Positions 47,610 through 50,324 of a stretch of 64,000 bases of DNA are shown piece after piece. The stretch comes from Lachnospiraceae bacterium (GTDB lineage Bacteria; Bacillota; Clostridia; Lachnospirales; Lachnospiraceae). The notes below the pieces were generated by a model. It saw only the letters and a program-made list of their open reading frames with translations. It was not told the DNA's origin and did no database searches. Numbering within the stretch: position 1 is the first letter of the stretch; each line of letters opens with the position of its first letter. The stretch is from NCBI GenBank assembly GCA_017387565.1, contig JAFOEY010000037.1:62001-126000 (forward strand), in the 5' to 3' direction. The position numbers and the translations under genes were made by a program.

Positions 47610-47984
47610 CTATTTGGATTGTTTCTGCTTGCTTTGTATGTGTTCAATCAACACGGAAAGATCTACATCAGCATCTTTTGCTTCTTTCAAAAGCCCATCC
47701 AGCTTTTCCATGATTTCAGCCTTCTTGATGTCTTTTAAGTTGTCATTGGCTGCAACAAAATTTCCTTTTCCTTTCACCGTATAGATAAATCCCTGCCGCT
47801 CCAACTCAGCATATGCTTTTTGAATGGTATTGGGATTAATGGAAAGTTCCATCGCCAGCGTCCTGACAGATGGCATCTTTTCTTCCGGTGTAAGCACATT
47901 TCGAACAATTAAGTTTTTGTATTTATTTACAATTTGCTCATAAATCGGGGTTGAATCCGTATAATCAATCCTAATCAAGATCAC
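47610..47984 (-). CDS. GntR-family (YtrA-type) repressor
   Basis: 124 residues: winged helix (PIYEQIVNKYKNLIVRNVL, PSVRTLAMELSINPNTIQKAY) and a short C-terminal helical dimer domain, as in YtrA regulators that head ABC operons. Likely represses its own operon until a ligand binds; the palindrome at 48049-48073 is the probable operator. Confidence 0.92.
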   Translation of the reverse strand: MILIRIDYTDSTPIYEQIVNKYKNLIVRNVLTPEEKMPSVRTLAMELSINPNTIQKAYAELERQGFIYTVKGKGNFVAANDNLKDIKKAEIMEKLDGLLKEAKDADVDLSVLIEHIQSKQKQSK

Positions 47985-48179: not shown

Positions 48180-48405
48180 TTGGCCGGAGCAATCCTTCTT
48201 GCAGATTTAGGTTTCGATGTATAAGTTCATTCTAAATATTTCGTTGTCCTTTTATTAGAATACGGACGCACCGGTGCACCCGGACATCCATGTCCGACGT
48301 GCACCTTTCGCAGCATCCTTGCTGCGAATTGCTGAAACAGAACGAAATATTAAGATGAACTAATACATCTCACAATAAATCCGCAAGAAGCATTGCTCCG
48401 GCCAA
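48180..48405. repeat. Large palindrome P1 with conserved core
   Basis: Arms 48180-48245 and 48341-48405 are reverse complements at about 85% (TTGGCCGGAGCAAT at the tips, AATATTTCGTT at the inner ends). The 95-base centre holds a 68-base core (48268-48335) with GCACCGGTGC, CGGACATCCATGTCCG and GCAGCATCCTTGCTGC stems. The core recurs inverted in P2. No gene in 47985-48798. Confidence 0.88.
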
Positions 48406-48534
48406 CTGAATATACCTTTTGCCCAAAATATCATATCATGAAGCTAATGAATAAATTAAACAAAAATGCTTCACGATAAGTCTCTTCCACAGTATTTAAA
48501 TTGAAAACTTCCAGTGTATAAACCATAAAACGCA

Positions 48535-48760
48535 GTTGGGTGGATATATATATCATTTGAGTTTATTGTGAAGATGCTTTGATTTGACTTAGTATTTTTC
48601 TCATTTTCAGCAATTTGCAGCATGGATACTGCGAAAGGTGCGCGTCGGACACGGATGTCCGGGTGCACCGGTGCATTCACAAGCAACAAACTATATAAAA
48701 ATACTTAGTCAAATATAAGCATCGGAATCTAAACTCGAATGAAATATATATCCACCCAAC
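48535..48760. repeat. Large palindrome P2, same core, different arms
   Basis: Arms 48535-48599 and 48697-48760 (tips GTTGGGTGGATATATAT, inner ends AGTATTTTT) are complementary at about 82% and unrelated to the P1 arms. The core 48607-48674 matches the P1 core in reverse orientation with about five differences in 68. Both elements are about 226 bp. Confidence 0.88.
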
Positions 48761-48798: not shown

Positions 48799-50238
48799 TT
48801 ACTCCCCATAGAGGGTTTCTTTCAGAAAACGCTTATTGGCCTCAAAGTCCACCTGCAAAACAGCCATACTCCGGATGGTTGCATTGGAATAGGTGCCTTC
48901 TAGTGGCACACATTGCTGTACCATGTCATAGCCTACAATTTTATAGCCCCCAAGTGCAATCTTATAGCATTCGTTTTGTTTCAGATTGGTCGTTAAATTC
49001 GGGAACAAACCATCAATCACCCCACCGGAATTGGTCATCATCGCTCCTGGAAGTTTTTTAAATACTTCTGCCAACACTTTACGCTGTCGTTCTGTTCTTC
49101 CAAAATCTGTACCAATGTATCGGTTACGGGTATAGGCAAGTGCCTGGGGTCCGTTCAAATGAATAACACCGCTTGCGGATGCATCCAACCAGTCATAATC
49201 CAGATTCCTTCCAAGAAGCTGATTATATTCCATCAGATATCCGTTAACTAACTGAACTTCTTCATTGGTAACTTCAAGATCAATACCACCCACAGCATCA
49301 ACCAGATTGGCAAATGCTTCAAAATTAACCAGAGCATATCGGTGCACGGGAATATCAAAATTATACTCTATCGTTTCCATTAGCAGTTCCGGTCCGCCAT
49401 ATGCATAAGCTGCATTCAGACGGTTTCCATCATGCCCCGGAATCTCTACATACATATCACGTAAAAATGATGTCATGGTAATCGTTTTGGTCTTATCACT
49501 GATAGAAACCAAAATCATGGCATCTGATCTTCCGTCATCTCCGCCCAGACGTGAATCATTTCCGATCAGCAGAACATTGACAACACCGTTATCCTTGTAG
49601 GATTCTTTCGTCATGCTTTCCACTTCATTATAGGTCATTTTTTGATAAACATGATTGACGGTCATATAAATACCACCGAAAATCAATATGAAAAAGACAG
49701 CCAAAAATACCAAAAAGGCCTTTGCTGCTCCATTTTTCTTTTTCTTCTTATTCTGTTTTTTACTATTCTTGCCTTTATTTCCTGCCATCTTATTTTTTGC
49801 CTGCTTTTTGCTTTGTTTTATCTCGTTTTCTCTTTCAGTCTCTCGACGGGAACGTGTCGAAGATTCTCTTCTTGTACGCTCTGTCGACTTTTGGTCATAT
49901 GAATCCGTTCTCGTACGATCCGCCGACTTTTTGCCATACGAATCCTCTGTCCTCCGATCTATCGGTTTTTTACCAAGAGAATCCGTTCTTGTGCGGTGGG
50001 TCTGAATTTTGTCATACGAATCTGTTTTCGTCCGCTCTGTAGGCAAATCAAACTTCAGATCTTCGTATGCATCTTCGGTATATCCAATAATGTCAAAATC
50101 AGCCTTGGAAGGCCTTTTCATTTTCTGCTCTGTTTGCATGGATTCCGTGAGTGAAAAATCCAGATTTAGCTGTCTGTCAACAAAATCTTCCAGACCTTTT
50201 TGAATCTCTTCACTTTCAAAACGTTTTTCATCCGCCAT
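48799..50238 (-). CDS. LytR-CpsA-Psr (LCP) wall-polymer ligase
   Basis: 479 residues from 50238 (AGGA nine bases before MADEKRFESEE). The cytoplasmic part has six or so imperfect repeats of about 14 residues (RTRTDSYGKKS) and a Lys-rich stretch. One membrane helix (KAFLVFLAVFFILIFGGIYM) precedes the extracellular LCP domain (about 220-400): LLIGNDSR, RSDAMILVSI, SFLRDMYVEIPG, NAAYAYGG, and TRNRYIGTDFGRTERQ. LCP enzymes transfer teichoic acids or capsule from lipid carrier to peptidoglycan. The repeat head is unusual and Ser/Thr/Tyr-rich. Confidence 0.93.
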   Translation of the reverse strand: MADEKRFESEEIQKGLEDFVDRQLNLDFSLTESMQTEQKMKRPSKADFDIIGYTEDAYEDLKFDLPTERTKTDSYDKIQTHRTRTDSLGKKPIDRRTEDSYGKKSADRTRTDSYDQKSTERTRRESSTRSRRETERENEIKQSKKQAKNKMAGNKGKNSKKQNKKKKKNGAAKAFLVFLAVFFILIFGGIYMTVNHVYQKMTYNEVESMTKESYKDNGVVNVLLIGNDSRLGGDDGRSDAMILVSISDKTKTITMTSFLRDMYVEIPGHDGNRLNAAYAYGGPELLMETIEYNFDIPVHRYALVNFEAFANLVDAVGGIDLEVTNEEVQLVNGYLMEYNQLLGRNLDYDWLDASASGVIHLNGPQALAYTRNRYIGTDFGRTERQRKVLAEVFKKLPGAMMTNSGGVIDGLFPNLTTNLKQNECYKIALGGYKIVGYDMVQQCVPLEGTYSNATIRSMAVLQVDFEANKRFLKETLYGE

Positions 50239-50324
50239 TTTCATACATCCTATCATTCTATTTTGGCAGAGCAATATCAGATGCTCTGTCTACCTGACAA
50301 GCACATTGCACTCGCCTCATCACC

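Follow-up and report, generated by a model that had tools for sequence, protein, structure and literature searches.

TwoAYGGAY RNA motifs in a pair of Lachnospiraceae palindromes appear to be the core of an old, MITE-like mobile element

Two long palindromes, P1 and P2, which lie in opposite orientation within a 64,000-nucleotide stretch of a Lachnospiraceae genome (the window, by which we mean the whole of the DNA analysed), are divergent copies of a known and functionally unexplained RNA motif of gut bacteria, TwoAYGGAY (RF01731). What such copies might be is the more interesting question, and the answer that we think quite probable, judging from sequence comparison, is that they are old mobile palindromes with a TwoAYGGAY core, in which the arms are mainly templated and the GGA loops are putative CsrA sites. 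P1 and P2 would then be two old, divergently placed, palindromic MITE-like copies with the TwoAYGGAY RNA at their centre, each folding on itself as a whole, the long arms leading into a branched core that bears two GGA hairpins. Among relatives the element would have spread by transposition through its terminal inverted repeats, leaving target duplications in one of them and probably partnered by an IS66-family transposase in another, as a common terminal repeat suggests; in the window's own genus the copies would now be inherited at fixed sites. The arms would drift and still keep pairing, chiefly since a template switch at replication would carry a change in one arm over to its partner, with selection on structure assisting, and the family, its GGA loops being probable CsrA sites, may scatter CsrA decoys or CsrA-responsive leaders across the genome. 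The strongest form of the idea, a transposable family that spreads CsrA-binding RNA hairpins and whose palindromic arms co-evolve through template switching, giving every copy complementary arms of its own, we offer more tentatively, as a serious possibility. The features of the locus are these, with positions counted from the first letter of the window.

47610..47984, minus strand: neighbouring GntR-family regulator; open reading frame with PF00392 match, E 4.3e-14; start about 195 bp from P1
48179..48406, minus strand: full palindromic element P1, arms plus TwoAYGGAY core; inverted repeat, fold z -14.7
48210..48375, minus strand: P1 match to RF01731 (TwoAYGGAY), model positions 1-168; 87.7 bits, gathering cut-off 43
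48281..48296, minus strand: P1 GGA hairpin 1, CGGACATGGATGTCCG as read on the minus strand; from sequence reading and fold
48310..48325, minus strand: P1 GGA hairpin 2, GCAGCAAGGATGCTGC as read on the minus strand; from sequence reading and fold
48407..48534, no strand: spacer of 128 bp separating the divergent P1 and P2
48535..48760, plus strand: full palindromic element P2; inverted repeats, fold z -10.8 (minus strand folded)
48566..48730, plus strand: P2 match to RF01731 (TwoAYGGAY), model positions 1-168; 93.5 bits, gathering cut-off 43
48617..48632, plus strand: P2 GGA hairpin 1, GCAGCATGGATACTGC, its stem with one mismatch; from sequence reading
48646..48661, plus strand: P2 GGA hairpin 2, CGGACACGGATGTCCG; from sequence reading
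48799..50274, minus strand: neighbouring LytR_cpsA_psr-family gene; open reading frame with PF03816 match, E 1.9e-37; stop 38 bp from P2

An earlier, sequence-only reading of this DNA had described two palindromes in opposite orientation with nearly the same core, and in this it was right. Inside each element the two 65-nt arms agree, at 55/66 positions in P1 and 54/66 in P2 (82-83%), against a mean of 0.42 and a maximum of 0.64 for 2000 segments of 228 bp drawn at random from the window, and the fold energies of P1 and P2 (each folded with 10 nt added on either side) lie 14.7 and 10.8 standard deviations lower than those of 200 dinucleotide shuffles, not one of which equalled them. The centre of P1 is 93% identical to P2 over 70 bp, inverted, the inverted match of core and inner arm extends over 103 nt at 83%, and sequence and fold give two GGA hairpins in P1 and P2 alike. 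That reading had also held that the arms share nothing and that no named element has this design, and neither statement survives: the arms of P1 and P2 are identical at 42/66 positions on the 5' side and 42/67 on the 3' side (about 64%), with conserved blocks at internal loops, and both elements match the whole of the 168-position Rfam model. Pairing continues outside the Rfam match, by 31 + 31 nt in P1 (29/31 paired) and 31 + 30 nt in P2 (28/30 paired). We considered and rejected intrinsic terminators, the sole terminator-like site between 47900 and 48900 (0.7 expected) lying away from the palindromes; the same interval contains three promoter-like sites, against 3.6 expected by chance, and P2 used as a query found no match in phage and plasmid collections.

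The window's genome, which we call G000, has 24 RF01731 copies above the gathering cut-off. At E 1e-4, eight congeners have 31, 29, 24, 16, 5, 3, 3 and 0 copies and seven relatives of other genera have 53, 50, 49, 37, 17, 8 and 3, counts for which only part of the candidates was scored in two of the seven. Across a sample of the order (295 genomes, stricter filters), 20 genomes contain a match with an E-value no higher than 1e-4, and in 18 of them it exceeds the cut-off. When named genomes were scanned for an exact pattern, the ten stretches found all came from two metagenome assemblies of uncultured Lachnospiraceae. In what follows, G302 and G296 are related species of the same genus as G000, and G180 and G205 are relatives from other genera.

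The boundary of the Rfam model falls within a stem, and the pairing runs on outward from it. Indeed, every one of the 24 copies in the window's genome has paired arms beyond the model, and a core without paired arms, the finding that the sequence-only reading named as fatal to its own proposal, occurs there in 0/24. By pairing extension, 100 of 104 copies (all those found in G000, G302 and G296, together with 20 of the 53 in G180) have outer arms that reach 20 nt or more on each side, the four others being two damaged copies (G302:C26:29477 and G296:C34:3777) and two at contig ends. Outer arms in the window's genus are mostly 23-43 nt long, with a few extensions up to 78; they reach 89-159 nt in 17/20 copies of G180 and 194-323 nt in 18/20 copies of G205. 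The G205 arms are layered, as seen in the 17 of 20 copies that could be anchored, and from the outside in they comprise a terminal repeat, a poorly paired stretch, a variable segment, and the conserved inner arm and core; the variable segment, of some 30-50 bp, differs between copies and pairs inside each copy. At one G205 locus, L218 (G205:C5:27341-28902), the outer arm overlaps the end of an apparent coding frame, which we take to be glycogen-phosphorylase-like, and is partly complemented in the other arm, the stem having grown into the flanking gene. Outside the family there are four weak matches, two of which fall under the cut-off; none has arms reaching past the model, and their long outer stem folds within it.

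Within the window's genome the copies have recurrent GTTG...CAAC ends and inner arms with conserved internal loops. Of the 84 copies from outside G180 most can be sorted by type, 10 being untyped, including P2, which we put in type A by hand. Outer arms pair within their own copy in G000 at a mean of 0.88 (11 type-A copies) and 0.79 (10 type-B copies), as against 0.58 and 0.49, respectively, for arms paired across copies and 0.36 for flank controls (n=24). The arms are therefore related from copy to copy without being one common repeat, the other outcome that the sequence-only reading had set against itself, and its phrase of a long stem whatever its sequence describes them fairly well. Neighbouring copies no more than 3 kb apart are divergent in 27/29 cases (8/8 in G000, 9/10 in G302 and 10/11 in G296), a count in which orthologous pairs enter more than once. 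By mechanical gene calls, such pairs tend to sit between tandem genes, one element past the upstream stop and the other ahead of the downstream start, and the window's pair is a loose fit to this layout, with P2 lying 38 bp from the LytR_cpsA_psr stop and P1 about 195 bp upstream of gntR. Other arrangements exist too: at G296:C14:18362-18754 two tandem copies in one orientation, 63 bp apart, have arm sequence in common, and a divergent pair of a third type is 1.3 kb apart in G000 (C44:48498-50145) and about 8 kb apart in G302 (C8:28067-36241), the amount of intervening DNA differing.

It is in the other genera that the copies look like mobile DNA. The copies of G180 terminate in CAGGGAAATC-type repeats, a terminal pattern with 64 hits in that genome and 0 for the backward control, and 8-9 bp flanking direct repeats with a score of at least 7 are found in 8 of the 11 copies (out of 20 fetched) whose ends could be defined, whereas the control that compares left and right sides across copies gives 1/110 at that score and 2/110 at a score of at least 6. 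A different terminal repeat, GTTRCCATTCACAG, occurs 25 times in G205, 6 times in G180 and 0 times in G000 (control 0). The six ends in G180 are of two kinds, three each, and five of them stand on loci cut by contig ends; the single intact locus of the first kind adjoins a transposase of the IS66 family (PF03050, E 1e-14), and a TwoAYGGAY element is broken by one of the ends of the second kind. We infer that the two kinds are both ends of one IS66 transposon, and because its terminal repeat is common to the G205 copies, an IS66-family transposase is the likely partner of the G205-type element. A nested insertion of this sort can be seen at a contig end in G180:C43 (L264, L271), where a TwoAYGGAY palindrome is broken by sequence that begins with the 14-base end GTTACCATTCACAG. 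Terminal inverted repeats, a defining trait of MITEs, are present in both G180 and G205, and since the ends of the two differ and their cores are related, different transposon ends would have been joined to related cores in different genera. It is the target duplications of G180, taken with a G205 end equal to that of an IS66-family transposon, that lead us to think that RF01731 appears to form the centre of a mobile element that is palindromic and MITE-like. The sequence-only reading had suggested either a new mobile unit or a family of structured RNAs, and the relatives bear out both.

Target duplications at a score of at least 7 are found in only 1/8 copies of G205 and in 0/23 copies of the window's genome, and these counts, with the lack of CsrA in the latter (see below), speak against the proposal as a whole, as does the difference between the terminal repeats of G180 and G205, no partner transposase having been found for the G180 type. 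Many G000 sites are common to G302 and G296, and it is these shared sites, and the lack of target duplications, that make the copies in the window's genus look old. The two absences between G000 and G302 that we examined are deletions that extend into the element. At the window locus both copies are present in G302; in genomes G300, G297, G301 and G295 the same two neighbours flank no RF01731 match but, by eye, other sequence, so that the locus offers no clean empty site.

How do arms that differ from copy to copy stay complementary? We compared 60 ortholog pairs among G000, G302 and G296 and used 52, dropping three that were short and five that were too divergent. Out of 2730 Watson-Crick arm pairs, 71 had a change in one partner only and 32 in both partners, against 2.73 double changes expected if the sides were independent, and 29 of the 32 were still Watson-Crick. 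Reduced for the history common to the three genomes, the 29 come down by hand count to 20 distinct positions, of which 16 are of transversion and 4 of transition type, with three adjacent doublets. Template switching is described as keeping RNA stems paired in PMC8794818, which also raises the same question for RNA genes, and double changes of this kind fit it because transversions bypass G-U intermediates and adjacent doublets suggest a single event. The main alternative invokes no more than compensatory selection of the ordinary kind acting on the RNA stem, with no templated copying, and we consider this rather unlikely as a full account. The conserved internal loops are in its favour, as is the G-U lean of the one-sided changes (33 GT against 11 AC on the RNA strand), and the outer mismatches pooled over the genus lean the same way, at 78 GT against 43 AC, under an extension rule that itself favoured GT. 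It is opposed by the 16/20 distinct double changes that are transversions, impossible via a G-U intermediate (among one-sided changes the share is 27/71), by the six of 20 that fall in adjacent doublets at about 2.5% arm divergence (hand count), and by standing mismatches that are about symmetric, both in a fixed outer zone (10 GT/11 AC, 21/14 and 21/16) and in the arms of G205 (141 GT/162 AC). As a test of RNA selection, GT versus AC therefore gives conflicting answers, and the one-sided lean points to RNA selection and not to templating alone. The transversion and doublet pattern and the symmetric mismatches, set against that lean, suggest to us that template-switched copying is the main, though not the sole, cause of arm complementarity, and that selection on structure helps.

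There are also sites at which arms have been replaced wholesale. At G302:C15:61829 and G296:C25:32162, one and the same site, the core is similar and the internally paired arms are quite different between species (5/139 differences in the flank, 105/303 in the hairpin), and further replacements are seen at G302:C1:113530 / G296:C18:267643 and at G000:C37:191380 / G302:C1:35517 / G296:C18:346631.

The sequence-only reading had its own idea of where arms come from, namely that each insertion was followed by the copying of adjacent DNA in inverted form. We regard this as very improbable as a general origin, given that the P1 and P2 arms are 64% identical, that inner-arm loops are conserved, that the arms of G180 are alike between copies, with a shared terminal repeat and with target duplications outside them, and that those of G205 have common inner blocks and terminal repeats. 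It may nevertheless account for single stem extensions: the stems of L218 (with its outer arm over the apparent end of a coding frame) and L232 continue into the flanks, and the outer stem at G302:C15:61829 / G296:C25:32162 can be read in the same way.

If the arms speak for mobility, the core speaks for RNA. TwoAYGGAY RNAs have been predicted to bind CsrA (PMC4333381), and among 122 folded copies, GGA is found in 198/256 terminal loops on the Rfam strand and in 1/270 on the other, in stems that vary; 121 copies have at least one such loop and 74 at least two. Over 53 ortholog comparisons, the GGA bases changed at 2/282 positions, other core bases at 238/5294 and the stems of the GGA loops at 29/1365, so that GGA is not clearly slower than its own stems. 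These strand-specific GGA loops are probably CsrA-binding sites. CsrA is encoded in 26/27 carriers overall (19/20 in the order sample and 7/7 further congeners with copies), and G299, the congener with 0 copies, has no CsrA match in an incomplete assembly. In the order sample, CsrA is found in 176/295 genomes, in 19/20 carriers against 157/275 others (p 0.0006), and within the family in 15/16 against 22/32 (p 0.07, not significant), both values being uncorrected for descent.

The sole exception among the 27 carriers is the window's own genome, which has no CsrA match. On its contig C32 (16921-19161; L363, L365), what we take to be flgK precedes a gene whose PDDEXK_2 match is weak and sub-threshold, with flaG and fliD coming next, whereas in G302:C13 (L305) a presumed flgK is followed by a presumed flgL-like gene, fliW, csrA and flagellin (FliW, CsrA, flagellin, FlaG and FliD being Pfam matches). 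The two flgK genes are 98% identical, and a flagellin-like match lies on G000 contig C5. The absence of csrA thus falls within a contig and does not coincide with a gap, although a chimeric assembly is possible.

All of this bears on the proposal that follows most directly from PMC4333381, that the copies are dispersed CsrA-sequestering small RNAs, duplicated and selected, not mobile, and with arms that merely stabilise a stem. We judge it unlikely. It draws on the strand-specific GGA loops, the conservation of GGA between orthologs, the presence of CsrA in 26/27 carriers, the order-wide association with CsrA, and four distant members, present once or twice per genome and lacking outer arms outside the Rfam match. 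It has to contend with the target duplications of G180, with transposon-type ends, with up to 53 copies per genome, with arms of at least 200 nt in 18/20 G205 copies, and with a window genome that retains its 24 copies without csrA. A CsrA sponge was rejected as the full answer for similar reasons, being insufficient where G180 copies behave as mobile DNA and the window's genome has no csrA.

Should the mobile-palindrome reading be true, an orphan Rfam family would gain an identity as the core of a mobile palindrome and not just as a small RNA, and tens of copies per genome at orthologous sites would furnish a natural test of stem pairing under turnover, templated versus selected, of the kind considered in PMC8794818. 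If the GGA loops do bind CsrA, a transposon would be spreading targets for a global regulator through genomes, and the organism of the window, with 24 copies and no csrA, would be a natural experiment. As far as the literature searched goes, three things here are new: that the family is apparently mobile DNA, that its very long arms are specific to each copy and show paired double changes, and that a host lacking csrA retains 24 copies whose loops are of the CsrA type. Neither mobility nor copy-specific arms of TwoAYGGAY are described in the available excerpts of PMC2864571 (where the RNA is named), PMC11661157, PMC4333381, PMC11701678 and PMC7657543; searches of the openly licensed literature for a MITE with an RNA motif, IS66 and CsrA, or for IS66, MITE and Lachnospiraceae together, found no report of such an element; and the available text of a MITE review (PMC10969869) mentions neither IS66 nor CsrA.

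It remains to place the element among known systems. Like REP/BIME palindromes, the copies are intergenic, often beside stop codons and often in opposed pairs, but at about 226 bp and more, with a branched core, they are a different size of object from a REP of 20-40 bp (PMC3733652). GGA-loop hairpins in pairs recall CsrA-sequestering RNAs of the CsrB/CsrC/RsmZ type, which carry many sites in one RNA, whereas here two putative sites per copy are dispersed over many loci. With MITEs the candidate element has in common its shortness, no coding capacity that we could see, many copies, terminal inverted repeats and, in G180, 8-9 bp target duplications; it departs from them in being one whole hairpin with a conserved RNA-like core, in joining at least two unrelated terminal repeats to that one core, and in the absence of target duplications from the window's genus. 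The closest likeness is of course to TwoAYGGAY RNA itself, whose full model P1 and P2 match well above the curated cut-off, yet compared with the RNA as published in the excerpts available to us, the element seen here is longer than the model, carries mobile-element ends in relatives and has outer arms that are specific to each copy.
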